Assembly (NCBI RefSeq): GCF_028867705.1
Contig: NZ_CP066171.1
Span: 1,240,001 to 1,304,000, forward strand
Length of the DNA: 64,000 nt
Source: Thermoleophilum album
Lineage (GTDB): Bacteria; Actinomycetota; Thermoleophilia; Solirubrobacterales; Thermoleophilaceae
Reading direction: 5' to 3'
The notes beneath the pieces are model-generated. The model saw only the letters and a program-made list of their open reading frames with translations, had not been told where the DNA came from and made no database searches. Shown here one piece after another: positions 1-15,409 of the stretch. How positions within the stretch are numbered: the stretch's first letter is position 1; each line of letters starts with the position of its first letter. Position numbers and translations under genes: made by a program.

Positions 1-1057
1 TGGGTCCGCCCGACGCCTCTACGCCCAGGCGCTGGTTTCTACCCGGCTGCGCGCGTTCTACGGGCCGCTGATCGCGTTCCTTCCTCAGCTCGGGCTGGCG
101 ACGCTGCTCGTCGTGGGCGCGCAGGCGGTGCGGTCGGGGTCGGTGACGCTCGGTGAGTTCGTCGCCTTCTACGGATACGTCGTCGTGCTGAGCGGCCCGA
201 TGCGCACGCTCGGTATGGCCCTTGGGATGGCACAGCGTGCGGTGGCTGCCGGCAACCGCGTGTTCGAGGTGCTCGATCGCCGCCCCGCGATCGTCGAACG
301 GCGGCCGGCGCGCCCCCTACCGCGCGGGCACGGGCAGCTCGAGCTGCGCGACGTGTGGTTCGGCTACGACCCGGCACGGCCGATCCTGCGCGGACTCTCG
401 CTCACCATCGAGCCGGGAAGCGTGCTTGGGATCGAGGGACCGACAGGCTGCGGCAAGAGCACGCTCGCCGCGCTCGTCGCCCGCCTATACGACGTCGACC
501 GCGGGGCGGTGTTGCTGGACGGCGTCGACGTGCGCGAGCTGCGGCTCGCCGAGCTTCGTCGCGCAGTGTGTCTGGCGAGCGCCGACGCCCCGCTGCTGCC
601 CTTGACTTTGCGCGCTAACGTCGCCTACGGCGACCCGGCGGCGAGCGACAGCGAAATCGTCGCCGCGCTCACCGCGGCCGGTGCAGAGAAGCTGCTGGAA
701 GAGCTTCCCCAGGGGCTCGACACGCTGCTTGGCGAGCGCGGCCAGCGGCTCTCCGGCGGTCAACGCCAGCGCGTCGCGCTGGCGCGCGCGCTCCTCTTGC
801 GCCCGCGCGTTTTGATCCTCGACGATCCGGTGGCGAGCGTCGACGCGCGCACCGAGCGCCTTATCGCCGAGCGCATCGCGCCGATCGTTCGCCGCCAGAC
901 GACGCTGATCGTCGCCCACCGTCCCGCTCTCCTCGAGCTGGCGGACCGTGTGGTGGCGCTCGACGGCGGCAAGGTGCGCGACCGTCGAGCGGGCGCCGCG
1001 GGGCGATCGAGCGCGGGCGCGCCGGGCGCGCACGGGAGGAGCACGGTCGATGCCTGA
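1..1057 (+). CDS. ABC exporter half-transporter, 5' truncated by window edge
   Basis: This is the C-terminal 351 residues of an ABC half-exporter; the frame is open from base 2 and the start lies outside the window. It begins in the last transmembrane helices and continues into a nucleotide-binding domain with Walker A GPTGCGKST, signature LSGGQRQR and switch His in IVAHRP. The Walker B run is LILDD, so the catalytic Glu is replaced by Asp. In known heterodimeric exporters this marks the subunit carrying the degenerate ATP site. The next gene starts within its last codons, so the two are almost certainly a pair. The substrate cannot be told from sequence. Confidence 0.93.
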   Translation, partial: GSARRLYAQALVSTRLRAFYGPLIAFLPQLGLATLLVVGAQAVRSGSVTLGEFVAFYGYVVVLSGPMRTLGMALGMAQRAVAAGNRVFEVLDRRPAIVERRPARPLPRGHGQLELRDVWFGYDPARPILRGLSLTIEPGSVLGIEGPTGCGKSTLAALVARLYDVDRGAVLLDGVDVRELRLAELRRAVCLASADAPLLPLTLRANVAYGDPAASDSEIVAALTAAGAEKLLEELPQGLDTLLGERGQRLSGGQRQRVALARALLLRPRVLILDDPVASVDARTERLIAERIAPIVRRQTTLIVAHRPALLELADRVVALDGGKVRDRRAGAAGRSSAGAPGAHGRSTVDA

Positions 1058-2843
1058 CGCGCGCTCTCGCGACACCAGCGCCGAGCTTCCGGAGCACCGC
1101 CTGCGCGCCCTGTGGGCTCTGCTTGCCGGGCAACGCGGTCGCGCGCTGGCCGCGGCGACCGCGATCGTCTGTGCGACCGCCGCTTCGCTCGCGCCGCCGT
1201 ATCTGGCCGGCCGCGTCGTCGACGCGGCCGCACACCACCGCGGGAACGGCACGATCGCGCTGTTGGCAGCGGCCTTCCTCGCCAGCAGCGCCCTCGTCTT
1301 CGCGACCAGCCGTGCCCAGACGCTGCTAGTCGGCATCGTCGGCCAAGCCGTGTTGCGCGACCTGCGCGTGCGCGCGTTCGGCCACCTGCTGCGCCAGCCG
1401 CTGGCGTACCACCACCGTGTCGCCACCGGAACGTCGCTGTCGCGTCTCACCAACGATGTCCAGGCGCTCGATCAGCTCCTCAGCGACGGCGCCGTGACGT
1501 TCGTCAGTGCGACGCTGACGCTCGTCGGCCTCGCCGTCGTGCTGTTCCTGCTCGACCCCACGCTTGCCGCGCTCGCATTCGGTTTCGCGCTGCCCGTCCT
1601 GGCTGCGGGTCTGTGGTTCCGTTCGGCGTCGCGCGCTGCTTACCGCATCACGCGCGAGCGGATCGCCGCGATCACCGCCTACATCCAGCAGACCCTCGCC
1701 GCAATTCGCACGAGCAAGCTCTTCGTCCAGGAGAAGCGACACCTGCGCGAGCTTGCCGAGCTCGGCGAAAGCAACGTGGCGGCGAACATGCGCACGGTCC
1801 GCCTCAACGCCGCCTACTTCCCGGGCGTCGAGCTTCTGACGGGGCTCGCCACGGTGGTGGTCGTGGTGGTCGGCGGCAAGCGCGTGCTCGACGGTGCGAC
1901 GTCGATCGGCACGCTGGCGGCGTTCGTCTTTTACCTCCAGAACTTCTTCGATCCCGTCCAGCAGCTTTCGCAGCTTCACACCACCTACCAAGCGGGCGTC
2001 GCCGGTCTCGACCGCGTGCTCGAACTTTTGCGGCGCGAACCCGAGCTCGACGACCCGCCACGTCCGCGCCCACTCCGCCGCGCCCGACCCGCGGTGCGCA
2101 TCGTCGAGGCGAGCTACTCGTACGACGGTGCGCACCGGGTGCTGCACGGGGTTTCGCTCGCTCTCGCGCCGGGACGCACGGTGGCCCTGGTCGGCCCGAC
2201 CGGCGCGGGCAAAACGACGCTCGCACGGCTCGCCTGCCGGCTGATCGATCCCGACGACGGCGCCGTCCTAGTCGACGGCATCGACGCCCGCGAGCTCGCC
2301 CAGGCCGAGCTGCGCCGGCGTGTGCTGCTGGTCCCGCAGGAGCCGTTCCTGTTTCCAGGCACGATCGCCGAGAACATCGCGCTCGGCGATGCGCGCGCCG
2401 GACGCTCCGCGGTCGAGGACGCGGCGCGTGCCGTGGGTGTGCACGCGACGATCGAGCGTCTGCCGGCCGGCTACGACACCGACGTCGGCGAGGCCGGGGG
2501 TCGCCTGTCGGCGGGCGAAAGACAACTCGTGTGCCTTGCCCGCGCGGTGCTCGCCGACCCGGCGATCCTGATCCTCGACGAGGCGAGCTCGGCCGTCGAC
2601 GCCGCCACGGAGGCGCACGTGCGTGCTGCGCTCGCACGGTTAAGCGCTGGGCGTGGAGTTCTGGTCATCGCCCACCGCTTGGCGGGCACGGTGCGCGCCG
2701 ACGAGATCGCGGTGCTCGAACACGGGCGGCTCGTGGAGCGCGGCTCCCACCGGCAGCTGCTCGCCGCCGGCGGAGCCTACGCCCGCCTGTGGCGGGCATG
2801 GGTCGAGGGGTCCAGCAACGGGGCTGGTGCGGCTAGACTCTGA
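1050..2843 (+). CDS. ABC exporter half-transporter, partner subunit
   Basis: A 597-residue half-exporter with an N-terminal six-helix membrane domain (about residues 30-320) and a C-terminal ATPase. It has Walker A GPTGAGKTT, canonical Walker B LILDE and switch His in IAHRL, but the signature motif is LSAGE instead of LSGGQ. The start is the ATG at 1050, behind GGGAGGA (1034-1040) and overlapping the upstream gene by 8 bases. A longer open frame begins at 948 but lies inside the preceding gene. The altered signature complements the Asp in the partner's Walker B, as expected for a heterodimer with one hydrolytic site. It probably exports a drug, lipid or peptide; this is inference. Confidence 0.95.
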   Translation: MPDARSRDTSAELPEHRLRALWALLAGQRGRALAAATAIVCATAASLAPPYLAGRVVDAAAHHRGNGTIALLAAAFLASSALVFATSRAQTLLVGIVGQAVLRDLRVRAFGHLLRQPLAYHHRVATGTSLSRLTNDVQALDQLLSDGAVTFVSATLTLVGLAVVLFLLDPTLAALAFGFALPVLAAGLWFRSASRAAYRITRERIAAITAYIQQTLAAIRTSKLFVQEKRHLRELAELGESNVAANMRTVRLNAAYFPGVELLTGLATVVVVVVGGKRVLDGATSIGTLAAFVFYLQNFFDPVQQLSQLHTTYQAGVAGLDRVLELLRREPELDDPPRPRPLRRARPAVRIVEASYSYDGAHRVLHGVSLALAPGRTVALVGPTGAGKTTLARLACRLIDPDDGAVLVDGIDARELAQAELRRRVLLVPQEPFLFPGTIAENIALGDARAGRSAVEDAARAVGVHATIERLPAGYDTDVGEAGGRLSAGERQLVCLARAVLADPAILILDEASSAVDAATEAHVRAALARLSAGRGVLVIAHRLAGTVRADEIAVLEHGRLVERGSHRQLLAAGGAYARLWRAWVEGSSNGAGAARL

Positions 2844-2907
2844 CGCGTCCCGCGCCGTGCGCGCCGCGGTGCCAGAGCTTCACCGCCGCGGGCCGGCGCA
2901 AAAGCGT

Positions 2908-2978
2908 TGGGGAATGGTGTAACGGCAGCACGACGGGTTCTGGCCCCGTTAGTCCAGGTTCGAATCCTGGTTCCCCAG
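2908..2978 (+). tRNA. tRNA-Gln (anticodon CTG)
   Basis: A 71-nt cloverleaf. The 7-bp acceptor stem is TGGGGAA (2908-2914) with TTCCCCA (2971-2977), followed by discriminator G. The anticodon stem ACGGG/CCCGT encloses loop TTCTGGC, giving anticodon CTG. The T-arm is CCAGG-TTCGAAT-CCTGG. CCA is not encoded. It sits 64 bases after the ABC exporter pair on the same strand. Confidence 0.97.
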
Positions 2979-3057
2979 CTGTAAGACGCGGCCAGCTGCA
3001 ATACGCGGCGCGCTGGCGCCCAGCCCGCGGCGAGCCGGACAGTCGTTTCGCGCCCCG

Positions 3058-4293
3058 CTAGAGCGCCGCTAGGTCGCTGGAAGGGTCCGCGAGCCGGTCG
3101 CTGTCGACCGCGTGGCCGGACTCGATCAGGCGTCGCGCTTGTTCCAGCTCCCCGGAGCGGCCGCCCGCGGTCAGGGCGGCACGCACCCGACCGTCGGCGA
3201 CGTAGAAGACGGTGAACGACCCGTCGTCGAGCGAGCCGCGCACGACCGCCTCGCCGCCGCCCGAACCGACGTACTCGAGCGAAAGCCAATCGGCGAGGTC
3301 GCTAAAGAAGTACGGGACGGTGTCGTAGGGCTCGTTCGCCCCGAGCAGGTTGCGGGCGGCGTGGCGGCCGTGGTTGAGGGCGGTATCCCAGTGCTCGACG
3401 CGCAGCGGACCGCCGTGCAGCGCGCTCCGGTACTCGCAGACGTCGCCGGCAGCGTAGATCCCCGGCGCGGACGTCTCGAGCTGCTCGTTGCACGCGACTC
3501 CCCCGGTTTCTCCGAGCGCGAGACCGGCTCGCCGCGCGAGCATCACGTCGGGCACCGCCCCGACGCCGACGATCACACAGTCGGCCGCGATGCGTTTGCC
3601 GCTCTTGGTGACCACCGCCCGCACGCGCCCGTCGCCCTCGAAGCGCTCGACCTCTTCGCCGCCGTGCGTGACGACACCACGGTCGCGCAGCAACCCGCCG
3701 ATCGCTCGGCCGACGACAGGCCCGAACTGGCGCTCGAGCGGCTCGTCCTCGAGCATCACGAGCTCGCAGGGCTTGTCCCAGCGCGACGCGATCGACGCTG
3801 CGCACTCGCACGCGATGAAGCTCCCGCCCACCAGCGCGACGCGCTCGGCGCGCTCGACGTCGGCACGGATCGCGTCGGCGTTGCCGAACGTCCGCAGATA
3901 GTGAATCCCCTCGAGATCGGCGCCCTCCGCCCGCAAGCGGCGGACGTTCGCACCGGTGGCCAGCAGAGCGCCGCGCTTCCAGCGTACGGTCTCGCCGTTC
4001 GAAAGCTTCGCGCTGCGTTCGCCGGGATCGATCGCCATCACCGAGGTGCGGGTAGCCAACTCGATCGCGCGCTCGGCGTAGAAGCTCTCCGGCTTCCAGT
4101 AGGCGTCAGTGCGCTGTTGTTCGCCGCGCAGATACTCCTTCGAGAGCGGCGGCCGGTCGTAGGGCGGGTCGGGTTCGCGGCCTACCAGCAGGATCGCGCC
4201 GTCGGCGCCCGCTTCGCGCAGCTCGGCGGCACAGGCGGCGGCGGCCAGGCCGCCACCGACGATCAGGAAATCGACCTCGCGGACGGCGGTCAT
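3058..4293 (-). CDS. NAD(P)H-dependent FAD oxidoreductase, ferredoxin/rubredoxin reductase type
   Basis: A 411-residue two-dinucleotide-fold flavoprotein. An FAD Rossmann motif (IVGGGLAAAACA) lies at the N-terminus, a second NAD(P) motif (VALVGGSFIACE) near residue 150, and the C-terminal FAD motif (GIYAAGDV) near residue 290. A reductase dimer domain containing HWDTALNHG follows, as in ferredoxin/putidaredoxin reductases and AIF-like proteins. It would pass electrons from NAD(P)H to a small iron-sulfur or similar partner; none is encoded next door. The ATG at 4293 shares its A with the upstream TGA stop (TGATG), favouring it over the TTG at 4296. It is last in the run of minus-strand genes with the two TrkA proteins. 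Confidence 0.88.
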   Translation of the reverse strand: MTAVREVDFLIVGGGLAAAACAAELREAGADGAILLVGREPDPPYDRPPLSKEYLRGEQQRTDAYWKPESFYAERAIELATRTSVMAIDPGERSAKLSNGETVRWKRGALLATGANVRRLRAEGADLEGIHYLRTFGNADAIRADVERAERVALVGGSFIACECAASIASRWDKPCELVMLEDEPLERQFGPVVGRAIGGLLRDRGVVTHGGEEVERFEGDGRVRAVVTKSGKRIAADCVIVGVGAVPDVMLARRAGLALGETGGVACNEQLETSAPGIYAAGDVCEYRSALHGGPLRVEHWDTALNHGRHAARNLLGANEPYDTVPYFFSDLADWLSLEYVGSGGGEAVVRGSLDDGSFTVFYVADGRVRAALTAGGRSGELEQARRLIESGHAVDSDRLADPSSDLAAL

Positions 4294-4976
4294 CAAGCCG
4301 CCTCCGGGCGACTGCGGAAGATGTCGGTGACCTGGTTTTCCAATCCCACGTCGAGCACGACGAGCACCTCGTCACCTGGCTCGATCACCGAATCCGGGTT
4401 GGGCACGAAGCCGTTTCCGTTGCGGAGAATTGCGGTGACGAGCGCACCGTCGGGCAGTTCGAGGTCGCCCACCCGGCGTCCGGCAGCGGGACTGCCAGCG
4501 TCGACCTCGAGCTCGATGATCTCGAGCTGCTCGGCGGGCAGGTCGAGGAGGTGTACGAGGCCGTACTCGGGAACCTCGTGCTCGATGAGGCGCAGGATAA
4601 GGTCGGTGGCGGAAACCACCGGGCTGATCCCGAGCAGCTTGAAGTGCTGGAGGTTGCGGGGGTTGTTGCAGCGCGCGACGATCCGCGGGACGCCGTACTT
4701 CTCGCGCGCGACCTGCGAGATGAGGATGTTGTCCTCGTCGTCGCCGGTCACCGCGATAACGAGATCGGCGCGCTCGATGCCGGCGCGCTCGAGCACCCAC
4801 AGCTCGGACCCGTCGCCGTACTGGATTGCGTGTTCGAGCTCCTCCTCGACGATCTGGTAGCGGCGCAGGTTCGACTCGATGACGGTGACCTCGTGGCCCT
4901 TGTTGATCAGCTCGCGCGCAAGGTTCCAGCCGACCTTGCCGGCGCCGACGATGATCACGTACATCGGTTTCGCCAT
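4293..4976 (-). CDS. trkA: TrkA-type K+ channel/transporter regulatory protein (RCK_N + RCK_C)
   Basis: A 227-residue cytoplasmic protein. Residues about 6-125 form a Rossmann RCK_N domain (IIVGAGKVGWNLA) that binds NAD(H) or ATP in known TrkA/KtrA proteins. Residues about 140-225 resemble a TrkA_C/RCK_C domain. The open frame extends upstream to 5288 but would overlap the whole neighbouring trkA, so I chose the ATG at 4976 (MAKPMYV), 2 bases after the upstream stop. It probably pairs with the shorter TrkA protein just upstream, as CeoB/CeoC do in mycobacteria, to gate a K+ transporter. No TrkH membrane subunit is present in the window. Confidence 0.9.
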   Translation of the reverse strand: MAKPMYVIIVGAGKVGWNLARELINKGHEVTVIESNLRRYQIVEEELEHAIQYGDGSELWVLERAGIERADLVIAVTGDDEDNILISQVAREKYGVPRIVARCNNPRNLQHFKLLGISPVVSATDLILRLIEHEVPEYGLVHLLDLPAEQLEIIELEVDAGSPAAGRRVGDLELPDGALVTAILRNGNGFVPNPDSVIEPGDEVLVVLDVGLENQVTDIFRSRPEAA

Positions 4977-4978
4977 CG

Positions 4979-5425
4979 CTAGCCGGCGACGCCTTCGAAG
5001 CGGATCTGACCGTAGACGGCGGCGCGCATCAGGTCGATCGCGGTCTGGGTGGGACAGACAGTCTGGAGTCCTTGCTCGGAGTACCAGCGAGCACGCAACG
5101 GGTCGAGCACGCGCACCACGACGCGCTCGACGTTGAACTGGCGCTTGGCGATCTGCGCTACGACGAGGTTGGTGTTGTCGCCATCGGTGGAAGCCACGAA
5201 GGCGTCGGCTTGCTCGATGCCCGCCTCCTTGAGGGCGTCGAGCTCGAGCGCCGTGCCAACGGTGAACCGTCCGCCACGTTCCTCCCACGTGAGGTCGCTG
5301 CCCTGGTTCAGCAGCTGGATCGCTTCCGGGTCCTCGTCGAGTACCGACACCTGGTGGCCGTCGGCGAGAAGCGCCTTGGCGATCGCCGATCCGACCCGTC
5401 CCGCTCCGACGATGAGCACGAACAT
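4979..5425 (-). CDS. TrkA-like single-domain RCK_N protein
   Basis: A 148-residue protein consisting almost entirely of an RCK_N Rossmann domain. The motif LIVGAGRVGSAIAKA is at its start, and an acidic residue near 31 ends beta-2 (VSVLDEDP). It lacks the TrkA_C domain of the following gene, so it is half the usual length. Twin TrkA genes, one short and one long, are typical of the actinobacterial CeoB/CeoC arrangement. The start is ATG 5425; a TAGAGT box lies 9 nt upstream. The role in K+ uptake control is inferred from the family. Confidence 0.85.
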   Translation of the reverse strand: MFVLIVGAGRVGSAIAKALLADGHQVSVLDEDPEAIQLLNQGSDLTWEERGGRFTVGTALELDALKEAGIEQADAFVASTDGDNTNLVVAQIAKRQFNVERVVVRVLDPLRARWYSEQGLQTVCPTQTAIDLMRAAVYGQIRFEGVAG

Positions 5426-5457
5426 CGAGGGTTCACTCTATCGGCACCTCTGGGCAA

Positions 5458-5480
5458 GCGCGTGATCTACCGTCACGCGC
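5458..5480. repeat. Perfect 8-bp inverted repeat between permease and trkA pair
   Basis: GCGCGTGA (5458-5465) and TCACGCGC (5473-5480) flank a 7-nt loop. It lies in the 141-base gap between the permease stop and the first trkA start. As RNA it could be a weak terminator for the permease; as DNA it could be an operator for trkA. No T-run follows. Confidence 0.45.
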
Positions 5481-5566
5481 GCACAGCCGTGCGCACCCGG
5501 CCGCTGTCGACGAGAGCACGAGCCGGGCTTTCGGCGGCCACCGCCGCGCACAGCGAACGCCACGGC

Positions 5567-7597
5567 CTAGGGCGCGACGCCGACGCGCTCGCCTTCCTCG
5601 CCGGCGGGCGGTGCCGTGAGGATCACACGGCAAGGCGCCTTCTCGAGCACATAGCGAGTGAGCTCGCCGAGCGTGCGGTCGCGCGGCGAGCCACGTCCGC
5701 CCAGCACCCGCCCCCCGCGCGTGCGCGACGGTGCCTCGGCCGCCAAAACGATCGCCTCGACGCCGCGACGACGCGCCTCCTGGACGATCGCTTGCCCTGC
5801 CTGGCGCGTGCGTACGACCGCCGTCTGCACATGCACTCCCTCGTACTCCTCGCCCACCGCGCGAGCGCGCTGCAGCGCCCGACGGGCCGTCTCGAGCCGC
5901 TCTTCGGGCAGGGCCGCGTCGAGCGGCAGCGAGAGCGGGATCTCGAGCGGATAGATCACCTCGAGCATCGGCGGCCCCTCGGTCTCGTCAGCCTCCTCCG
6001 CGGCGAGCCGGCCGGCCGTGCCGACGATCTCGACGTCCATCGGATCACCCGTCACCGGGACGAGGATGCTGCGGTACTCCTGCTCCAGCGGTTCACGCAG
6101 CACCGACTCGGGCACCCGGAAGCGCTTCGTCAGCGGCTTGCCGCTTGTCCGCCGGTAGCCGACGTAGAGTGCGAGACCCACGGCGAGCCACGCCAACCCG
6201 AGCCAGCGGGCGCCGGGGTGCAGCACGAGCACGCTCACCCATCCCGCTGCTGCGAGGAGCGCGCCCAACAAGGTCGGCAGCGGCACGACCGCGCCGCGCA
6301 CGCGGATCCCGAGCGGAACCCGAAACGGCCGCTGTCGTGCACCTTCCCGGAAGCGCAGGACGAGCACCGACAGGTGCGCGATGGTGAATGCGAGTAGAGC
6401 GCCGAACGCGTACAGCCCGAGCAACAGATCGACGTCGCCGGCGAGGGCCAGCACGAACGCCAGCGCCGCCGCGCCGCCGATCGCCAGGTACGGCGTAGCC
6501 CAGCGGGGATGAAGGCGCCCGAGCGCGCTCGGCACCTGTTGGTTGGTCGCCAGCGAGTAGGTCAGCCGTGCAACGCCGAGAAGCTGCGACGTGACCGCCC
6601 GGCCCAAGACCAGCGTGGCGAGCAGCACCACAGCTACACGCGCTACCTCGCGCAGCGCTTCCGGTTCGAGCACCGTGGCGATGCCTAGCACCGGTGTCAG
6701 CAGGTACTCGTCGCTAAGGGGGGTGCGGCCGTCGCGCGCGGGAAGGAGCGACAGCGCCACGAGCGAGATCGCGCCGAGCAGGAGCAAGACCGAGATGGCG
6801 CCCGCACCCACCGCCCGACGCAGCGCTCGCCGCGGCAGCCGGACCTCCTCGGCAAGCCCCGAGGCGGCCTCGATACCGGTGGTGGCGACCGTGGCGAGCG
6901 CCGCCGCGAACGCGAGGTCGGCGAGCTCAGGCCGGCTGCCGAGCTCGACATCGGCGAAGGGATCGGCCAGCGTCGGTCCGAAGGCGAGCGCGAGGACGGC
7001 TAGCAACAGCACTGCGAGGAGGTTGACTACCCCGATCCGAAACGAGCGACGCAACCGTTCGACACCGAGCCCGCGCACGTTGCGCACGGCACCGAGCGCG
7101 AGCAGCAGCGCGGCGATGCCGATCTCGGCGGCTCTCGTGTCGAGGGGATCCCACAGCGCGCCGAGGTAGTGCGGCACGGCGAGCGCACAAACAGCAGCGA
7201 CGATCAGGTAGTCGAGCACGATCGCCCATCCCGCGACGAAACTCACAAGCTCGTTGAAGGCGTAGCGCGCGAACGTCGACGCACCGCCCCGCTCGGGGTG
7301 GAGCACGTTGCCTTCGACGTAGGTGAGGGAGGTCAAGAAGTAGAAGAAGGCGACAAAGACGAGCACGAGCGGGGTGAGCCCGAGCGCGTCGCGCGTCACC
7401 ACACCGAGGGCGAAGTAGACGGCCGCCGAGACCGTCCCGACCGCGACGCCAACGATCGCCGGTTCGCCGATGCCGCGCGCGATCGTCGCTTCCAGCTGTT
7501 CCAAGCGCGCCTCCCGCCCCTGGTCGCTACCGGGGCGCGACACGTGAGCCGGGCGCCGCCGCCATGCACCCAACTGGGACCTGCGCAGCTCGCTCAC
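5567..7597 (-). CDS. APC-superfamily permease with C-terminal universal-stress-protein domain
   Basis: A 676-residue protein. Residues about 30-490 hold roughly 12 hydrophobic helices of the APC amino-acid/cation permease fold. Residues about 515-660 form a soluble UspA-like domain (begins RSILVPVTG, with a glycine-rich nucleotide-loop-like stretch near the end). The start is GTG 7597, which overlaps the upstream small gene's stop as GTGA, implying translational coupling. It is a paralogue of the permease at 7812-9695. APC proteins carry amino acids or, in the KimA branch, K+. The TrkA genes downstream make an ion a possibility, but the KimA N-terminal signature is not obvious. Substrate is unassigned. 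Confidence 0.88.
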   Translation of the reverse strand: MSELRRSQLGAWRRRPAHVSRPGSDQGREARLEQLEATIARGIGEPAIVGVAVGTVSAAVYFALGVVTRDALGLTPLVLVFVAFFYFLTSLTYVEGNVLHPERGGASTFARYAFNELVSFVAGWAIVLDYLIVAAVCALAVPHYLGALWDPLDTRAAEIGIAALLLALGAVRNVRGLGVERLRRSFRIGVVNLLAVLLLAVLALAFGPTLADPFADVELGSRPELADLAFAAALATVATTGIEAASGLAEEVRLPRRALRRAVGAGAISVLLLLGAISLVALSLLPARDGRTPLSDEYLLTPVLGIATVLEPEALREVARVAVVLLATLVLGRAVTSQLLGVARLTYSLATNQQVPSALGRLHPRWATPYLAIGGAAALAFVLALAGDVDLLLGLYAFGALLAFTIAHLSVLVLRFREGARQRPFRVPLGIRVRGAVVPLPTLLGALLAAAGWVSVLVLHPGARWLGLAWLAVGLALYVGYRRTSGKPLTKRFRVPESVLREPLEQEYRSILVPVTGDPMDVEIVGTAGRLAAEEADETEGPPMLEVIYPLEIPLSLPLDAALPEERLETARRALQRARAVGEEYEGVHVQTAVVRTRQAGQAIVQEARRRGVEAIVLAAEAPSRTRGGRVLGGRGSPRDRTLGELTRYVLEKAPCRVILTAPPAGEEGERVGVAP

Positions 7598-7776
7598 CGT
7601 CGCCGTCGCAGCAGAACAAGGCGCAGGAAACCGAGCGTCGCGAGCGCAACGCCGCCGACGACACCGATTGCACCCGGACCGCCGCCGCTTGCGGTCGTGA
7701 CCGCGATCATCGCGAGCCCGAGGGCCAACAAAGCCAGCGCGAGAGCGACGGCGGAAGCCAGGTACAGCCGTTCCAT
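7594..7776 (-). CDS. Small membrane protein of unknown function (60 aa)
   Basis: This 60-codon gene starts at ATG 7776. Residues 5-28 and about 36-54 are hydrophobic, separated by a GGGPG turn, and the tail is LRRRR, suggesting a two-helix hairpin with a cytoplasmic basic end. The stop overlaps the GTG of the permease by 4 bases (GTGA), so the two are likely co-translated. A TACGAT box sits 7 nt before the ATG, supporting this start. It may be an accessory subunit of the permease; no family is recognised. Confidence 0.7.
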   Translation of the reverse strand: MERLYLASAVALALALLALGLAMIAVTTASGGGPGAIGVVGGVALATLGFLRLVLLRRRR

Positions 7777-7783
7777 GGCGCGA

Positions 7784-7789
7784 ATCGTA
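7784..7789 (-). promoter_or_regulatory. Putative -10 box TACGAT, leaderless start of small membrane gene
   Basis: TACGAT on the minus strand lies 7 nt before ATG 7776 with no Shine-Dalgarno between. The spacing puts the transcription start at or next to the start codon. It would drive the small gene, the permease and perhaps the trkA pair. Confidence 0.5.
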
Positions 7790-7811
7790 CGCTCGCGCTC
7801 GGCCCGAACCG

Positions 7812-9695
7812 CTACGCCGCGCGCTGCAGATCGCGTTGCGCCGGTCGCGGCGAGACCAGGATCACGCGGCCCGGCCTTTCCGCCAAGACGGTCTCGATCG
7901 TGTTGCCGAAACCGCCACCAGCGCGCCGCGACGGCACTGGCATCACCACCGCCCGCGCCTTGATCGCACGCGCCTCGTCGACGATGCGCCTCCCGGCACC
8001 GCCCGGCCGCACCTTCTCCCAGTGGCCGGTCACGCGCCGACCGCCAATAACGCGTGCCGAGTCGATAACGGTCTGGGCCGCTTCCTCCTCGGCCGGCATC
8101 GCCGCGTCTATCGGCAGGTTGTAGGGCACGGTGATCAGCACCAGCACGTGCACCGCTCGGTTGCGCCGCGCCGCGAGCTTGCAGGCGGTGCGCACCGCCT
8201 CGGGTTCGAACTGCCCGCCGTCGAACGCCACGAGGATCGACTCGTACTCGACCTCGCGCTCGACGACCGGCTCGGGCAAAACGATCTTGCGCGTCTCCGT
8301 CAGCCCAAGCCCTTGCCCCTTGCGGTAAGCGACGTACAGCGCGAGCCCGACCGCGAGCCACACCGAACCGACGGCCAGGGTGCGCAGATCGAGTGCCGAA
8401 ACGACGACGAGCGCGAGCCCGGTGCCAATTCCGCCGACCACCGCGTAGACAGGCAACTCGTGCCCGCGGACGCGCAGGGTGCCGGGGCCGCGCCAGGGCC
8501 GCTCGACCTCGGGCGCGCGTACGCGCAGCGTGGCCACGGCAACGTGGGCGATCGTGAACGAGAGCATCGCCCCGAAGGCGTAGATCGTGCCGAGAAACTC
8601 GGCCTCCCCCGGCAGAAGCGTCGCGCAGGCGATGAGGCTGAAGGTGACGATCGCCACGTACGGGGTGCGAAAACGCGGGTGCAGCGACCGCAGCTTCTGC
8701 GGCAACTGGCGGTACTGGCCCATCGAGTAGGTGAGGCGAGAGACGCCGATCAGGCCCGCATTGGTGGCGAGGAAAAGGATCGTCGCCGCCAGCAGTCCGA
8801 CGTAGATCTCGGCCGGGCGCTGGAGCACGCCGAGATGCATGTTCTCGACGATGCCGAGCACCGGGTCGTCGGCGAAACCTCCCTCCTCTTTCGACAGCGC
8901 GAGCAGGGTGCGCCCGTTGTCCACCGGCATCGCCGAGAGGGCGACCGCCGGCAGGAAGGCGTAGATCGCGAACACAGCGGCGACTACCGCGGCGATGCCG
9001 CGCGGAATCGTGCGCCCGTAGTCGCGCGCTTCCTCGGCCATGTTCGAGATCGTCTCGATGCCGGTGTAGGCCACCATCCCGACGGGGATCGCGACGAGGA
9101 AGTCGCCTAAGGTCGGGTTACGGCCGAAGTCGACGTTGCGAACGAGAACCTCTGGCGAGAAGACCAGCACCAGGCCAGCGACCACCAGCGCGACCTGCGT
9201 CAAGAAGTCGGTGACGGCCAAGATCACGTTCATCCGCGCCGACTCTTTGACACCGATCACGTTGATCGCCGCGAGCACCGCGATCACCGCGATTCCCGCG
9301 ACGATGTCAGCCGGCGAGCGTCCCAGCTCGGGCCAGAAAACCCCGAGGTAGTGCGGGACGAAGAAGGCCGATATCGCGACCGTGATGATGTAGTTGAGCA
9401 TCTGCCCCCACGCGGCCACGAACGCCCACAGCTCGTTGAAGGCGTGGCGAGCGAACGACGACGATCCGCCGGCTTCCGGGTACATCGTCGTTCCTTCCGC
9501 ATAGGTCGCGGCCGTGCAGGCGAAGATCAAGCCGGCGATGACGAAAACGGCCGGCGTCAGCCCGAGCGCGAAGACGGCGACGAGGCCGAGCGCGTAGTAG
9601 ATCGAGCTGCCGACGTTGCCGTAGGCGGTGCTGAAGAGAGCTCCAGCCCCGAGCACCCGTTCGAGTCCGACGCTGCGCGGCCGAAAGCGGGCCAT
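7812..9695 (-). CDS. APC-superfamily permease with C-terminal universal-stress-protein domain (paralogue)
   Basis: A 627-residue paralogue of the permease at 5567-7597. About 12 membrane helices fill residues 15-460, including the APC-typical STAYGNVGSSIYYALG segment in helix 1. A UspA-like cytosolic domain starts near residue 480 (ESILVAFDGG). It lacks the soluble N-terminal extension of its neighbour. Start ATG 9695 has a TAGCGT box 9 nt upstream. Tandem paralogues suggest two related substrates or a heteromeric unit. An amino-acid carrier is the conservative call; a KimA-like K+ importer is an alternative given the TrkA genes. Confidence 0.88.
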   Translation of the reverse strand: MARFRPRSVGLERVLGAGALFSTAYGNVGSSIYYALGLVAVFALGLTPAVFVIAGLIFACTAATYAEGTTMYPEAGGSSSFARHAFNELWAFVAAWGQMLNYIITVAISAFFVPHYLGVFWPELGRSPADIVAGIAVIAVLAAINVIGVKESARMNVILAVTDFLTQVALVVAGLVLVFSPEVLVRNVDFGRNPTLGDFLVAIPVGMVAYTGIETISNMAEEARDYGRTIPRGIAAVVAAVFAIYAFLPAVALSAMPVDNGRTLLALSKEEGGFADDPVLGIVENMHLGVLQRPAEIYVGLLAATILFLATNAGLIGVSRLTYSMGQYRQLPQKLRSLHPRFRTPYVAIVTFSLIACATLLPGEAEFLGTIYAFGAMLSFTIAHVAVATLRVRAPEVERPWRGPGTLRVRGHELPVYAVVGGIGTGLALVVVSALDLRTLAVGSVWLAVGLALYVAYRKGQGLGLTETRKIVLPEPVVEREVEYESILVAFDGGQFEPEAVRTACKLAARRNRAVHVLVLITVPYNLPIDAAMPAEEEAAQTVIDSARVIGGRRVTGHWEKVRPGGAGRRIVDEARAIKARAVVMPVPSRRAGGGFGNTIETVLAERPGRVILVSPRPAQRDLQRAA

Positions 9696-9744
9696 CGCGC
9701 TGGAACGCTAGTCGCCGCAGGAGGCGAGCGCGGGGACAGCAGCG

Positions 9745-9788
9745 CCGGTGCGGAAGGACGACCCCAAGGTCGCCAGCTTCCGCACCGG
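9745..9788 (-). terminator. Strong intergenic hairpin downstream of hppA
   Basis: CCGGTGCGGAAG (9745-9756) pairs perfectly with CTTCCGCACCGG (9777-9788). Inside the loop CGACC/GGTCG forms a second 5-bp stem with loop CCAA. It begins 27 bases after the hppA stop and ends before the permease start. There is no T-run, so it is either a non-canonical terminator or an mRNA 3'-end stabiliser. Confidence 0.6.
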
Positions 9789-9814
9789 ACGCGCTGAAGT
9801 CGGGAGCCGAGCGC

Positions 9815-11929
9815 TCAGACGAGGAACGGGATGATCAGAAGCGCGACGATGTTCGCGACCTTGATCATCGGGTTGATCGCCGGCCCGGCGGTGTCTTTGT
9901 AGGGGTCGCCGACGGTGTCGCCGGTGACCGAGGCAGCGTGCGCCTCCGACCCTTTGCCGCCGAACTCGCCATCTTCGATCAGCTTCTTGGCGTTGTCCCA
10001 TGCGCCGCCGCCGGAGGTCATCGACACAGCGGCGAAGAAGCCGACGACGATCACGCCGATCAAGAGCCCGCCGAGCGCCTTGTACGACAGCAAGCCGACA
10101 ACGAGCGGGACGACGATCGGGATCAGCGCCGGCAGGATCATCTCGCGCTGTGCCGCGGCGGTGACGATCGCCACCGCGCGACCGTAGTCGGGCTTCTCGG
10201 TGCGCTCCATAATGCCCGGCTTTTCGCGGAACTGGCGCCGCACCTCCTCTACCACGGCGCCGCCGGCGCGGCCGACGGCCTCGATCGCGAGCGAAGCGAA
10301 CAGGTAGACCATCATGCCGCCGATCACGAGTCCGATAAGCACCTCGGGCTGGGCGACGTCGAACGTGCCGAGCCCGATGTCACCGGCGTGACCGGAAGCG
10401 GTGGCCTCGTCACGGAGCTCCTCGACGAAGGCGGCGAAGAGCACGAGCGCGGCGAGCACCGCCGAGCCGATCGCGTACCCCTTCGTAACCGCTTTGGTGG
10501 TGTTGCCGACGGCGTCGAGCGGGTCGGTGACGTTGCGCACCGACTCCGGCAGATCGGCCATCTCGGCGATGCCACCGGCGTTGTCGGTGATCGGTCCGAA
10601 GGCGTCGAGCGCGACGATCAGACCGGTCAGCGACAGCTGCGCCATCACGGCGACGCCGATGCCGTAGAGGCCTCCGAGCTCGTAAGCGCCGAGGATCGCC
10701 AGCGAGATCAGAATCGCGGGCGCCGCGGTCGCCTGGAAGCCCTGGGCTAGACCCTGGATGATGTTCGTCGCGTGGCCAGTCTGCGAGGCGCGGGCGATCG
10801 TCCGCACCGGCCGGAAGCGCGTCGACGTGTAGTAGTCGGTGATGATGAAAAGCCCGGCCGTTACGGCCACGCCGATCAGCGTGCAGAGCCACAGGTCGGT
10901 CGCCGTCGGTACGTCGCTACCTCCCTTCAGCAGCGACGAGGCGTTCTCCTTGAAGGCGAGACCGTCCATCAGCCAGTTGCTGACGGGCAGGAAGGCGATC
11001 GCCGAGATCACGCCCGATGTGATCAAGCCCTTGTAAAGCGCGCGCTCGACGTTGTCGTTGCGCGTGCGCACCGCGAAGGTGCCGATGATCGACGCGATTA
11101 GCGAGACACCGCCGACGACGAGCGGGTAGACGGCGACCTCGGTCTTCTGCTGGAAAGTGAGGACGCCGAGCAGCATCACGGCGACGGCCGTCACCGCGTA
11201 GGTCTCGAACAGGTCGGCCGCCATGCCGGCGCAGTCGCCGACGTTGTCGCCGACGTTGTCGGCGATCACAGCGGGGTTGCGGGGGTCGTCCTCGGGGATC
11301 CCGGCCTCGATCTTGCCCACCAGGTCGGCGCCGACATCGGCGGCCTTGGTGAAGATGCCGCCGCCGAGACGTGCGAACACCGAGATCAGCGAGCCGCCGA
11401 AACCGAGACCGACGAGAGCATCGACGGCCTCTTTCTCGTCGACACCGGCGAGCAAGAGCACGCCGTAGTAGCCGGCGACGCCCAGCAAAGCGAGGCCGGC
11501 GACGAGCAGGCCCGTCACCGCGCCGCCCTTGAAGGCGACGCTCAGCGCCGCCGCCACACCCTTGCGCGCCTGCTCGGCGACGCGAGCGTTGGCGCGCACC
11601 GAGACGTTCATGCCGATGAAGCCGGCCGCGCCCGAGAACGCACCGCCGATCAAAAAGCCGATCGCGACCTGGACGCCGTTGGTGCCTTGCGCCTCGAGCG
11701 CGGCGCCGAGGAGAACGGCGAGCACCACGCCGACGGCACCGATGATCGTGTACTGGCGCCGCAAATAAGCGCTCGCGCCTTCCTGGACGGCGGCCGAGAT
11801 CGCACGCATCTCTTCGTTGCCGGCTGGCTGGGCGAGCAGCCAGCGCGTCGTAAGCAGGCCGTACGCGATCGCCGCCGCTGCGCAGGCGAGCGCGACGATC
11901 ACTCCGTAGTCGTTCAAGAAGTCGGTCAA
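9815..11929 (-). CDS. hppA: Membrane-bound proton-translocating pyrophosphatase, K+-independent type
   Basis: A 704-residue membrane protein of about 16 helices that couples PPi hydrolysis to proton pumping. The substrate site is clear: acidic/Lys motifs in [14 protein letters not shown] and the [12 protein letters not shown] loop, plus C-terminal GGAWDNAKK. The family determinant reads GNTTKA, where Lys (instead of Ala) is known to make the enzyme K+-independent. Start is TTG 11929, 7 nt after GGAGGAG, a much better Shine-Dalgarno than at any other candidate. It lies 61 bases downstream of mtnP on the same strand. It could use PPi from biosynthesis and work against the PPi-PFK at 46377. Confidence 0.98.
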
Positions 11930-11936
11930 GGAAGCT

Positions 11937-11943
11937 CTCCTCC
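11937..11943 (-). promoter_or_regulatory. Shine-Dalgarno GGAGGAG of hppA (decides TTG start)
   Basis: GGAGGAG on the minus strand, 7 nt before TTG 11929. It is among the strongest ribosome-binding sites in the window and fixes a rare TTG start for the long membrane pump. Confidence 0.7.
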
Positions 11944-11990
11944 GTCGTGTGAGTGGCTCTCCGAGTGCCGCCTGGACGGCGGGAACGCTC

Positions 11991-12827
11991 CTATCCTTGG
12001 ACGATCGCGCGGTCGAGGGCGCTCGCGCACTGGTCCTCCGGCTGCGGCCCGACGCGCGGAACCGCCCGGAACAGGAGCGCGCGCAGTCTATCGATGTTGC
12101 GGGCGAAGACCTCGAAAGCGGCGTCGGCCGACACCGGCTCGATGTCGTCGCGACCCTCGAGACCAGCGTCGTAGTCGGTGACGAGCGACACGTTCGCGTA
12201 GCAAAGCCCGAGCTCGCGCGCCAGCCACGCTTCTGGGTACTGCGTCATGTTCACGACGTCACAGCCCATCTGGGCAAACCAACGCGACTCGGCGCGTGTC
12301 GAGAAACGCGGCCCCTGGATGACTACAACCGTTCCCCCCTCGACCACGGGGATCGAAAGCTCGCGCGCGCAATCGGCGAGAAGCTGGCCGAGATCGGCGC
12401 AGTACGGGTCGGCAGCGGCGACGTGCGTGGTGCGCGGCCCGTCGTAGAAGGTGTCGATCCGCCCGCGCGTGCGGTCGATGAACTGGTCGCAGATGACGAA
12501 GGTGCCGGGTTCGAGCTCGGGCTTGAGCGACCCGCAGGCACAGGGACCGATGATGCGCCTGACACCGACCTCGCGCATCGCCCAGACGTTGGCGCGGTAG
12601 TTGATGCGGTGCGGCGGGAGCGTGTGGCGGTCGCCGTGACGCGGCATGAAGGCGACCGCGCGACCGTCGATCTCGCCCACCCGGATCGGCGCCGACGGCG
12701 GGCCGTACGGCGTGTCGAGCACTATCTCCTCGACGTCGTCGAGGAACGAGTAGAAGCCCGACCCGCCGAAGATCCCGACCGGCTCGCGTTCCCTCAGCTC
12801 GTCCAGCGCTCTGTTAGTTGTCCCCAT
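11991..12827 (-). CDS. mtnP: S-methyl-5'-thioadenosine phosphorylase family
   Basis: A 278-residue MTAP/purine phosphorylase-2 family enzyme that splits methylthioadenosine with phosphate into adenine and methylthioribose-1-phosphate. Visible motifs are the phosphate loop [30 protein letters not shown], the CACGSL strand and NMTQYPE in the nucleoside pocket. Closely related MTI/inosine phosphorylases share the fold, so exact substrate is less sure than the family. It starts inside the last codons of the upstream DUF1844-like gene (14-base overlap). No other methionine-salvage gene is nearby. Confidence 0.93.
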
Positions 12828-13230
12828 CCTTCAGCCGGTTCTTGTCGCTGTCGCCAGAAGCCCTTCCGGCACCCGTGCCGCGTTCGGCGGCCGGCGCACG
12901 AACGGCGCGCGCGAACGCTAACTGCACCGCGGCGAGGGCGTCGCGCAGAGCGCGTCGCTCGCGCTCGGCACAGAGCTCGACGAGAGCGCGAGCCGCGTCG
13001 ATGGCGCGCCGCGCCTCGTCGAGGTCGCGGTGTTCCGGGCGCTCGAGGCGCGCAGCGGCGACGCTCACGAAAACCGCGCCGTACTGCGCAGCGAGGTCTG
13101 CGGTCTTGGGCGGGACGGGTGGCGACTGCGCCCCCTCGCCACCGGGCCGCTCCCCTCCACCGGTGCGCGCCCCGTCCGCGCGCGAACCGGACCTGCCCTT
13201 GGCTGCCTCGCTTTCGCGTGAGTCGGACAC
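12814..13230 (-). CDS. DUF1844-like conserved protein
   Basis: A 138-residue hydrophilic protein. The first 40 residues are Gly/Ser/Pro/Arg-rich and probably disordered. Residues about 43-115 are helical and resemble DUF1844 in layout: a hydrophobic segment (YGAVFVSVAAA), then DLDEARRAIDAARALVELC and an Arg/Glu-rich helix. Function is unknown. Start GTG 13230 follows a GGAGG/GAGG region. Overlap with mtnP suggests co-expression. The DUF1844 assignment is tentative. Confidence 0.7.
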   Translation of the reverse strand: MSDSRESEAAKGRSGSRADGARTGGGERPGGEGAQSPPVPPKTADLAAQYGAVFVSVAAARLERPEHRDLDEARRAIDAARALVELCAERERRALRDALAAVQLAFARAVRAPAAERGTGAGRASGDSDKNRLKDGDN

Positions 13231-13276
13231 TGCCCTCGTCCCTCCGCGACCGTCTAGCGCTGTCCGCCGCTACCGC

Positions 13277-14449
13277 TCAGGTCCCGACACTGGCAGCCGC
13301 ATAAGTGCGCTGGGCGTTCTCGACCTCGGCGCGAAAAACCTCGCCGATCGACGCGCCGCCCGCGTACGCACGCAGCTGCCGCTGCGCGCCGTTGACGGCC
13401 GGAAGCTGCGGATCGAGCCCGAGCTCGCTGCGCGCCGGCTCGGTCCAACGCAAAAGCCGCTCGGCGACGGCGGCGGCCGGAAACTCCTCGCCTTTGTCGA
13501 GGTCGATCAACTTGCCGTCGAGGCCGTAGCGGAGCGCCCGCCACACGTTCTCCTCGACGAGCCGCACCGGCGGGTGCACGAAGGGAACGTTCTCGTCGAC
13601 GTCGCGCGCCGCTTGCGCGACGCACGCGACGATCAACTCGGCGAGCGCGCTCGACTCGTCGGCGCTCGACTGGGCGTCGCAGATGCGCACCTCGACCGTT
13701 CCGAAAGCGTGGTGGGGACGCACGCTCCACCACAGCTGGGTGTGCTCGACAACGCAGTTCGTGCGCACGAGAAACTCGACGTGGCGGGCGTACTCGTCGA
13801 ACCCGTACCACGGTTCGGGAATCCCGCAGCGCGGAAATGCGCGCGTGAAGATCTGCGTGCGCACGCTGTGCAGCCCCGAGTCGCGACCATCCAGGAACAC
13901 GGAGTTCGCCGACAGCGCCAAAAGCTCGGGTAGCACCGGGCGCAGGCGGTCGCAGACGGCGACCGCGCGCTGGGCCCCACGCACACCGACATGCACGTGC
14001 AAGCCGAAGGTGTTGTTGCGCCAGGCGACGTAGCGAAGCCCGTCGGAGACGCGGTGGTAGTGCTCGGTGTCGATGATGCGCTGCTCCTGCCAAGGGCTCC
14101 AGGGATGGGTCGCGCAGGCGGCGAGCACCGCCCCGCGCTCGGCGGCGAGGCGAAACAGGCGCGCCCGCGCCTCGCGCTGGCGGCGCAGAGCGTCAGCGAA
14201 GTCGTTGCCCGCACCGGAGCGGATCTCGATCTCGGACTGGATCAGCTCGCCCGAAACCGCCTCGGCGAGAACCGGGTCGGAGGCGGCCGCCGCTTTCAGC
14301 TCGTCGAAGCGGTGCGCCAGCGACAACGTCTCGGGGTCGAGGATCTGGAACTCCTCCTCGATCCCCACCGTGAAGTCGCGGGAGTTTTCGAACACCTCCC
14401 GCACGTGCGACATGTCGAGGAGCAGTGCAGGGCTCTGCGTCACGTCCAC
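13277..14449 (-). CDS. Glutamate-cysteine ligase family 2 / carboxylate-amine ligase (YbdK-type)
   Basis: A 390-residue GCS2-family ATP-dependent ligase. The hallmark is the N-terminal VGIEEEFQILDPETL, where the Glu cluster binds Mg-ATP, followed by SEIEIRSG, HVHVGV (catalytic-site strand) and a late GTVEVRICD. Members join glutamate and cysteine (EgtA or gamma-glutamylcysteine synthesis) or make other gamma-glutamyl amides. Substrate cannot be fixed from sequence. Start GTG 14449 lies 15 bases after the rex stop, so it is probably co-transcribed with the redox sensor, which fits a thiol role. Confidence 0.9.
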   Translation of the reverse strand: MDVTQSPALLLDMSHVREVFENSRDFTVGIEEEFQILDPETLSLAHRFDELKAAAASDPVLAEAVSGELIQSEIEIRSGAGNDFADALRRQREARARLFRLAAERGAVLAACATHPWSPWQEQRIIDTEHYHRVSDGLRYVAWRNNTFGLHVHVGVRGAQRAVAVCDRLRPVLPELLALSANSVFLDGRDSGLHSVRTQIFTRAFPRCGIPEPWYGFDEYARHVEFLVRTNCVVEHTQLWWSVRPHHAFGTVEVRICDAQSSADESSALAELIVACVAQAARDVDENVPFVHPPVRLVEENVWRALRYGLDGKLIDLDKGEEFPAAAVAERLLRWTEPARSELGLDPQLPAVNGAQRQLRAYAGGASIGEVFRAEVENAQRTYAAASVGT

Positions 14450-14464
14450 CGCCGGGAGCGCGCT

Positions 14465-15136
14465 TCAGGTCAGATAGAAGTACAGAGCGTAGAGCAGGTC
14501 GACAGCCGGGCTCGAGGTGTGCACCGTCACGTCCGGCGGCACCTGCAGCAGCGCTTCCGAGTAGTTGAAGATGATCTTCACTCCCGCGGCGACGAGGTCG
14601 TCCGCGACCGACTGGGCGACGGCGCTCGGCACGGCGAGCACACCCACGACGACGCTCTCTTCGTCGATCACCCGGCGCATCTCGTCGTAGGGACGCACGA
14701 CGAGCCCCGGCCCCACCTCCATCCCGATCTTCTCGGGATCGACGTCGAACACAGCCACTACCCGGAAGCCGTGGTCGGCGAAGATCTCCGAGCCGGCGAT
14801 CGCCTGTCCGAGCCGTCCGGCCCCGAACAACGCGATGTTGTGGCGGCGCCCCGCCGTGCGCAGAATCTTGCGGATCTGCGAGACGAGCGAATCGACGTTG
14901 TAGCCGACACCGCGCTTGCCGAACTTTCCGAAGCCTGAAAGGTCGCGCCGAATCTGCGTGGGATTGATGTGCGTGTACTCGGCGAGCTCCTGTGACGAGA
15001 TCGTCGAGCGGCCCATCTTCTTGGCCTGAGTAAGCACCTGCAGGTAGCGCGACAGCCGCGCGGCCACCCCGAGCGGGAGGCGCTCGCGGCTTCCTTGCAT
15101 CGCGCGTTCGATCATCGCCTGCTCGCTCGCGCTCAC
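14465..15136 (-). CDS. rex: Redox-sensing transcriptional repressor Rex
   Basis: A 223-residue Rex protein. An N-terminal winged helix (about 20-85) carries the conserved QIRRDLSGFGKFGKRGVGY, and a Rossmann domain starts with LFGAGRLGQAI near residue 100. A C-terminal swapped helix ends the protein (YALYFYLT). Rex represses respiratory and fermentation genes and leaves DNA when NADH rises. GTG 15136 overlaps the stop of the glutaredoxin-like gene (GTGA). No canonical TTGTGAA-N4-TTCACAA operator was seen in the window, so its targets probably lie elsewhere. Confidence 0.97.
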   Translation of the reverse strand: MSASEQAMIERAMQGSRERLPLGVAARLSRYLQVLTQAKKMGRSTISSQELAEYTHINPTQIRRDLSGFGKFGKRGVGYNVDSLVSQIRKILRTAGRRHNIALFGAGRLGQAIAGSEIFADHGFRVVAVFDVDPEKIGMEVGPGLVVRPYDEMRRVIDEESVVVGVLAVPSAVAQSVADDLVAAGVKIIFNYSEALLQVPPDVTVHTSSPAVDLLYALYFYLT

Positions 15137-15390
15137 GCGCCCACTCTATCGAGAGCCTCGCGCAGCTCAGCGGCGTCGAAGTCGAGCTCGACAAGCGGTT
15201 CGCCGTTCCACAGCACCACCGGCACGCGCTGCCCGAAGCGCCGCTCTAGCAGCGGATCGAGCGCCGCGTCGAGCTCTCGCAAGGTCAGGTGGCGGCGCCT
15301 CGCCTCGGCGCGCACGAGCTCGCTGCGCTCGCTACACAGGTGACAGCCAGCCTTCCCTACGAGTACGAGGCCTGTTTCGTGCTCTTGCAC
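15133..15390 (-). CDS. Glutaredoxin-like DUF836 family thioredoxin-fold protein
   Basis: An 85-residue protein with the DUF836/glutaredoxin-2 layout: beta strand LVLVGKAGCHLC, whose CxxC is CHLC near residues 16-19, then a helix, then VPVVLWNGEPL with the cis-Pro turn. The likely role is thiol-disulfide exchange in the cytoplasm. The overlapping rex gene and downstream GCS2 ligase make a small redox group. Its physiological partner is unknown. Confidence 0.85.
   Translation of the reverse strand: MQEHETGLVLVGKAGCHLCSERSELVRAEARRRHLTLRELDAALDPLLERRFGQRVPVVLWNGEPLVELDFDAAELREALDRVGA
15143..15148 (-). promoter_or_regulatory. Possible internal -10 box TAGAGT upstream of rex
   Basis: TAGAGT lies 6 nt before GTG 15136, the leaderless spacing seen elsewhere in the window. 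It sits inside the last codons of the preceding gene, so part of the match may be coding coincidence. Confidence 0.35.
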
Positions 15391-15409
15391 GGTCGTCTCG
15401 CGGCCCGGC

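Follow-up and report, generated by a model that had tools for sequence, protein, structure and literature searches.

Closest described systems and the gene cluster

Two kinds of described K+ system come close to the genes analysed here. KimA of Bacillus subtilis, a K+/H+ symporter of the KUP family (PDB entries 6s3k, 8b70 and 8b71), has an APC fold and a USP-like cytosolic domain, and in Trk and Ktr systems TrkA-type RCK proteins are encoded beside a membrane transporter. The cluster described in this work, at positions 3058-9695 of a 64,000-nucleotide stretch of the Thermoleophilum album genome (contig NZ_CP066171.1; this whole stretch is called the window below), likewise has twin TrkA genes. 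They lie beside genes for two paralogous permeases with the same fold and cytosolic domain as KimA, and a tiny two-helix membrane protein is encoded between the permeases. Unlike in Trk and Ktr systems, where the membrane subunit is TrkH or KtrB, the transporter is of the APC fold and the genome has no match to those subunits; unlike KimA, to which the sequence similarity is low, it comes as two paralogues instead of a single protein and is accompanied by the tiny protein. We would place the system among the APC-fold K+ transporters and the RCK-regulated K+ systems, as a variant that belongs to neither KimA nor Trk. We suggest that the five core genes (two permeases, the tiny protein and the TrkA pair) probably encode a K+ uptake system, which is the best explanation of the observations reported below.

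The original prediction, made from the DNA letters alone, listed six same-strand genes in order. The open reading frames (ORFs) of the window and their Pfam domains bear out both the order and the places, with all six genes on the minus strand:

7812..9695, minus strand: permease 1, 627 residues; APC domain (PF13520, E 1.3e-40) and C-terminal Usp domain (PF00582, E 3.4e-10)
7594..7776, minus strand: tiny two-helix membrane protein (ORF 7597-7776 plus stop), 60 residues, hydrophobic, new family
5567..7597, minus strand: permease 2, 676 residues; APC domain (PF13520, E 1.1e-28) and C-terminal Usp domain (PF00582, E 6.7e-11)
4979..5425, minus strand: TrkA-short, 148 residues; TrkA_N only, TM1088A-like
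4293..4976, minus strand: TrkA-long, 227 residues; TrkA_N and TrkA_C, TM1088B-like
3058..4296, minus strand: ferredoxin-reductase type flavoprotein (flavin reductase; PF07992, PF14759), an order-specific neighbour and not a core gene

The GTG start of permease 2 overlaps the stop of the tiny gene.

The TrkA pair has a described counterpart. TM1088A and TM1088B of Thermotoga maritima form a two-subunit octameric TrkA ring (PMC4380455). They have the same layout, a short protein with TrkA_N only and, adjacent to it, a protein with TrkA_N and TrkA_C, and they are the best PDB match of TrkA-short (TM1088A, E 1.9e-23) and the third PDB match of TrkA-long (TM1088B, E 1.8e-29). Since the domain content is the same, the window pair likely forms a two-subunit ring as well, by analogy. 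The difference is that the membrane protein encoded next to the window pair is not TrkH.

Potassium importers in the genome and in the class

The source genome of the window is a single contig of 2.11 Mb, 95.66% complete. The prediction had noted that no partner of the TrkH/KtrB type is present, and this extends beyond the window: across the whole 2.1 Mb assembly there are 0 matches at E 0.01 and at 1e-5, whereas the same search finds a match in 11 of 14 control genomes. KimA, KdpA and Kup have no match in this genome either (K+ channels with two transmembrane (TM) helices were not searched for), and neither TrkH, KimA, KdpA nor Kup was matched in the other three genomes that represent its family in the sample. 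With no match to TrkH/KtrB, KdpA, Kup or KimA, the permeases are therefore the best candidates for the K+ importer of the genome. To this extent the earlier proposal of the permeases as candidate K+ carriers stands; by their sequence profiles, described below, they are not KimA orthologues.

A sample of 150 genomes of the class (Thermoleophilia) extends the comparison. Permease 1 is matched in 97 of them (E 1e-40) and TrkA-long in 104 (E 1e-30). All four importer families are lacking in 38 genomes, 31 of which have permease 1. In the other seven (G064, G138, G169, G178, G194, G228 and G243) neither permease 1 nor any of TrkH, KimA, KdpA and Kup reaches the cut-offs applied. The tally excludes three KimA rows (G153, G170 and G248; E 1e-33 to 1e-39).

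Several of these data weigh against a K+ role. The absence calls depend on assemblies that may be incomplete, that of the window among them, and the seven genomes just named have no match to the four importers or to permease 1. Known importers also occur in 66 of the 97 genomes that carry the permease, and for this reason the overall association of permease 1 with the lack of the four importers is modest (Fisher p 0.011). The coexistence of permease and TrkH in many genomes would also suit a system that exports or exchanges K+ instead of taking it up, as KhtTU and KefC do under RCK control; RCK proteins do control exporters too, and TrkA-short matches the KefC RCK domains, weakly. However, in the 31 genomes without the four importer families no K+ candidate other than the permease was found, and KimA, which holds the equivalent place beside TrkA genes, is an importer (PMC6994465). 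We regard export or exchange as improbable.

Conservation of the unit and the place of the TrkA pair

The grouping found in the window is more than chance. TrkA-long and a permease gene lie on the same contig and strand, no more than 6 kb apart, in at least 72 of 98 class genomes from nine families (the 13 weakest TrkA rows were left out of this count), and in the order of the window in at least 29 of 37 genomes. Among the matches listed, at least 42 of the linked genomes have two permeases and 30 have one. The prediction had proposed a check on relatives, and in them the unit proves to be conserved. The five genes, namely the two permeases, the tiny protein and the TrkA pair, are firmly supported as a conserved unit.

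The sixth gene is not part of it. Of 31 loci from the window's order, 17 have the flavin reductase next to the TrkA pair, as against none of 36 loci of other families; being confined to the order, it is rejected as a core member and is a local addition. The single unit of the prediction holds for five of its six genes.

The 26 unlinked TrkA-long cases among the 98 genomes are in part contig breaks and in part genuine. In family f4 the pair lies apart from the permease in 12 of 16 genomes. Five loci of family f3 (L162-L166) have a TrkA pair without permease or tiny gene alongside; in one of these genomes (G253) the permeases are located elsewhere, and some f3 genomes have no permease at all. 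In the class as a whole, 10 of the 104 genomes with TrkA-long lack permease 1, although the TrkA matches of G132, G148 and G156 among them are weak. The original prediction had named a TrkA pair conserved without the permeases as evidence against the unit. Such pairs occur, yet all ten genomes carry another importer (KimA, Kdp, Kup or TrkH), which fits the K+ reading and says more than the overall association given above.

The pairs that live apart from the permease, in these ten genomes and in family f4, count against a joint system and raise the question of whether the TrkA pair serves an unlinked two-TM K+ channel, its present neighbours being only historical. A channel of this kind, MchK of mycobacteria, takes up K+ (PMC9025972). 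Nevertheless, the linkage of TrkA-long and permease across nine families is difficult to reconcile with such a history, and the tiny gene is still found beside the TrkA pair where the permease is elsewhere. We consider this explanation very improbable.

The tiny two-helix protein

The tiny protein follows the permeases closely. In a first scan, 30 of 38 tandem loci had a two-helix ORF with the pattern GGG...G...G..R in the stretch separating the two permeases, and further searches found a tiny ORF in the remaining eight, the window included. Its profile also finds a gene immediately before single permeases (L185-L193); in genus g10 of family f4, where the permease is elsewhere, the gene immediately precedes TrkA-short. 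Genome-wide, 95 of the 150 class genomes have a match at E 0.01. The strong set consists of 91 matches (E <=1.3e-7; 15 weaker rows were left out), and these fall in 91 of the 97 genomes with permease 1 and in none of the 53 without. Of the 91 copies, 78 lie no more than 500 bp from a permease and 12 no more than 1 kb from TrkA-long; the contig of the last one carries neither.

The tiny ORFs thus make up a conserved family of proteins. The window copy matched no Pfam or NCBIfam model, and no PDB sequence match was found; when 21 members were compared with Pfam, there were two weak matches, each of a single member to a different family of unknown function (E 0.00097 and 0.0023). Co-conservation gives good support to the suggestion of an unrecognised subunit, while physical contact with the permeases is hypothetical.

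Kdp and TrkH contexts within the class

Some class loci place the permeases in the company of known K+ genes. In L202 (G253) a tiny-permease 2-permease 1 cassette, detached from the TrkA pair, is flanked on one side by a DUF4118 kinase together with a KdpE-like regulator and on the other by kdpA with a KdpD-domain gene; KdpB and KdpC in this locus were named by eye. In L206 permease 1 adjoins a KdpE-like regulator and a kinase with DUF4118. In both loci the kinase and regulator matches fall short of the curated cut-offs set for KdpD and KdpE. L175 and L176 have a one-strand run of permease, TrkA, TrkA, full-length TrkA and TrkH. In family f7, seven loci have TrkH genes nearby (L049, L177, L195, L196, L197, L198 and L201), near the cluster in general and, in L177, near the TrkA pair alone. 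In two genomes of the same family (G129 and G200) KimA adjoins the TrkA pair in the position where many relatives carry permeases 1 and 2, and kdpA lies some 4 kb away from this KimA gene.

Second copies of permease 1 away from the TrkA pair were seen at L204 6587-8497, L205 6747-8708 and L206 6112-8088; those in L204 and L206 adjoin two-component genes. A KdpDE link of the L204 copy is unsupported, as the kinase has no DUF4118 and the regulator matches MtrA best. In L168 (ORF ending at 7796) and L169 (9119-10081) an extra ORF between KimA and the TrkA pair matches the window-type permease profile; that of L169, 321 residues long and with no TM helix, is read as a Usp-type piece.

The position beside twin TrkA genes outside the class

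KimA resembles the window permeases also in where it is found, since in many other Actinomycetota it occupies the same slot beside twin TrkA genes. In a phylum-wide sample of 119 genomes, TrkA-long is matched in 105 and TrkH in 65; the slot was tallied at one TrkA locus per genome, in 93 genomes and the window (94 of the 105). Outside the class, 29 of 44 TrkH-bearing genomes have TrkH no more than 2.5 kb from the TrkA genes; a KimA-type permease stands beside TrkA in 29 of 43 TrkH-less genomes as against 3 of the 44 (Fisher p 1.9e-9). In one TrkH-less locus a permease piece scores closer to the window type. The pattern is incomplete, which counts against the K+ reading: no such transporter neighbour is seen in 13 of the 43 TrkH-less loci (three of which run into a contig end) and in 12 of the 44 TrkH-bearing ones.

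By sequence, these KimA-type permeases are KimA proper. A profile built from 22 such sequences, two of which come from the class of the window, matches PDB KimA over both domains with E 2.2e-203 and 681 bits, and Asp36, Tyr43, Thr121 and Tyr377 are present in all 22.

In mycobacteria, the arrangement recurs with CeoB and CeoC as the twin TrkA proteins and the adjacent Rv2690c as the presumed APC-type permease. Starting from one mycobacterial KimA query, a divergent TrkA pair lies within 2 kb in 80 of 80 loci (L222-L301), and no TrkH ORF occurs within these mycobacterial and related loci. The 80 are the best of 587 relatives of this query and are close kin, not independent cases; they come mostly from named Mycobacterium, Mycolicibacterium and Mycobacteroides records, M. 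tuberculosis not being included. The mycobacterial locus has true KimA, oriented divergently, whereas in the window locus the permeases are two, of another kind and transcribed like the TrkA genes, and the tiny protein is added.

These data suggest KimA as the membrane partner of CeoB/CeoC. From its genomic place, Rv2690c would be this KimA. A transposon screen of M. tuberculosis groups ceoB with the adjacent Rv2690c (PMC12216072), which fits the pairing, and Rv2690c appears in tables of two other screens, for rifampin tolerance and pyrazinamide (PMC10534295, PMC8805019). For Streptomyces venezuelae, a review (PMC10117811) reports a KimA-like protein, Vnz_27465, an RCK_C protein, Vnz_27460, and no TrkH found by its authors; to judge from the locus tags, the two genes would be neighbours. 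A limited literature search, of sources seen in part, turned up no proposal of KimA as CeoB/CeoC partner.

Sequence relationships and fold of the permeases

In its own genome permease 1 matches only itself and permease 2 (E 1e-3), with which it shares 40% identity, and we take the two as paralogues. In a quick tree they join with a support of 95.8, apart from KimA and the control permeases; a clade of permease 1 with KimA is neither shown nor rejected in this tree with its long branches (approximately unbiased test, p 0.30). On these sequences the permeases are a separate APC-USP clade, in the slot that KimA holds in many other Actinomycetota.

Profile searches, in which each permease profile includes a few rows of the other permease, place both closest to CAT4 and GkApcT-type transporters of cationic amino acids. 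The best amino acid transporters reach 113 and 124 bits, versus 60 bits for KimA, which ranks 28th in each list. Together with the missing Asp36 (see below), these scores lead us to reject the window permeases as KimA orthologues. Homology of permease 1 to Kup was tried as well, and the profile comparison is not significant. The stretch AYGNVGSSIYY in TM1 of permease 1 resembles the Kup stretch VFGDIGTSPLY; as a similar stretch occurs in 6 of 23 control APC permeases (five with Asp, one with Asn; TM1 is covered in 16), TM1 is not used as evidence. A Kup-like TM1 stretch, e.g. VGDIGTGIYALT, is also seen in an APC permease group of unknown substrate (L009, L010, L011, L023, L024 and L025), whose members fall in one tree group of nine.

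The fold model of permease 1 has a predicted local distance difference test score (pLDDT) of 88. Aligned with KimA 8b71 it gives Z 44.1 over 506 residues of both domains, with a root-mean-square deviation (rmsd) of 15.2 that arises because the two domains are set differently. ApcT, a single-domain amino acid transporter, is nearly as good (Z 42.2, rmsd 2.5), and the NKCC and KCC cotransporters come next. For permease 2 the alignment with KimA gives Z 40.7 over 513 residues with rmsd 9.8, a tie with BASC (Z 40.8).

Ion-site residues and the alternative of an organic substrate

The roles of the KimA site residues have been described, and D36A and D36N abolish uptake (PMC6994465). In permease 1 the KimA site residues of TM3, TM6 and TM10 (T121, S125, T230, E233 and Y377) are kept. 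Among 38 sequences, Tyr102, Thr105, Ser109, Thr211, Asn218 and Tyr372 are present in 38 and Glu214 in 37; together with Glu214, the six correspond to KimA Y118, T121, S125, T230, N237, Y377 and, for Glu214, E233. The controls were 23 ordinary APC permeases of the phylum, two of them identical, and the counts depend on the profile alignment: the KimA letter is seen at T121 in 2, S125 in 5, T230 in 0, Y377 in 0, Y118 in 5, E233 in 14 and N237 in 10. Thus, at the places of T121, S125, T230 and Y377 at least 18 of the 23 controls differ from KimA. GkApcT and CAT4 have other letters at these four places in the alignments as well.

The first TM helix is different. KimA's Asp36 is replaced in permease 1 of the window by Asn27 or Gly18, depending on the register: in the Kup-like register Asn27 is present in all 38 rows, and in the KimA register the residue at 18 is mostly Pro, Asn or Gly. 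Tyr43, the TM1 gate of KimA, may have a counterpart in permease 1, where an invariant Tyr falls at its place in either register (Tyr25 or Tyr34). In permease 2, the Asp36 place is Glu in 9 of 33 rows, from families f4 and f7. All 33 rows of permease 2 have Asp at D117 and Glu or Asp at E233, and 32 have Tyr or Phe at Y377, while Val or Leu stands at T121 in 33 of 33, so that the KimA Thr is lacking and the site is kept in part. We infer from this split of residues between permeases 1 and 2 a division of labour, and hence propose a heterodimer. The C-terminal LHNQ(S/T) segment of KimA for cyclic di-AMP (c-di-AMP; H579, N580, Q581) has no counterpart in the alignment of the window permeases; in the KimA-type set it has H in 22, N in 16 and Q in 20 of the 22.

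A number of these results speak for another substrate and against K+: the best profile matches are transporters of cationic and other amino acids, the essential Asp36 is missing, amino acid transporters superpose on the TM domain as well as KimA does, permease 2 lacks a site Thr, and the residues kept at E233 and N237 are weaker evidence since their letters are common in the controls. They would suit permeases that import an amino acid or other organic solute, with the TrkA pair tuning this uptake to the ionic or energy state of the cell and the link to K+ being regulatory only. On the other side stand the four site residues that are kept in permease 1 and rare in the controls, the slot shared with TrkH and KimA, the loci that have the permeases within a Kdp cluster or in a single run with TrkH, and the lack in the window genome of a match to any of the four importer families. 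GkApcT and CAT-type transporters are not known to have the Usp domain that both permeases carry. We regard an organic substrate as unlikely, though deserving some weight, and prefer K+ uptake.

Proposed mechanism of K+ uptake

Step 1: Permeases 1 and 2 would most likely assemble into a heterodimer in the membrane, in place of the homodimer formed by KimA.

Step 2: The heterodimer would move K+ inward, probably together with H+.

Step 3: The TrkA-short/TrkA-long ring would sense nucleotides and may gate or tune the permeases.

Step 4: The two-helix protein would act as a small membrane subunit in contact with the permeases, perhaps joining permease and ring.

Other features around the cluster

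Upstream of permease 1 the ORF reading gives one further gene on the same strand:

9815..11929, minus strand: multi-helix protein, 704 residues, upstream context

From its sequence we tentatively read this protein as a membrane H+-pyrophosphatase. A similar multi-TM gene stands directly before the TrkA pair in L162 and L163, and in L051, L170 and L173 one lies upstream with the tiny gene intervening before the cluster; in L165 and L166 a different gene is at this position. Just past the cluster end, on the opposite strand, there is a tRNA-Gln (CTG) at 2908-2979. Rfam at the gathering score over 1-20000 gives only this tRNA, with no c-di-AMP riboswitch and no other RNA. No sigma-70-like promoter was found in 2800-12200, a null result of little weight because the organism is GC-rich.

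Implications

K+ uptake is essential, yet many of the sampled genomes have TrkA proteins and no TrkH. The slot pattern offers specific candidates for the membrane partner: the new permease pair in the class of the window and KimA in mycobacteria. We tentatively extend this to a broader picture, possible but short of likely as a whole, in which a paralogous APC-USP heterodimer, a two-subunit TrkA ring and a two-helix subunit would together carry most K+ import in much of the class, KimA would be the missing partner of the twin TrkA proteins (CeoB/CeoC) in mycobacteria and other TrkH-less Actinomycetota, and RCK rings would regulate APC-fold secondary transporters throughout the phylum. If this is true, the RCK ring would join the known ways of regulating APC-fold transporters, and the tiny protein would add a small membrane family that has no Pfam name. 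Last, the most useful by-product of the analysis is the pairing of KimA with TrkA proteins in the TrkH-less Actinomycetota, mycobacteria included.

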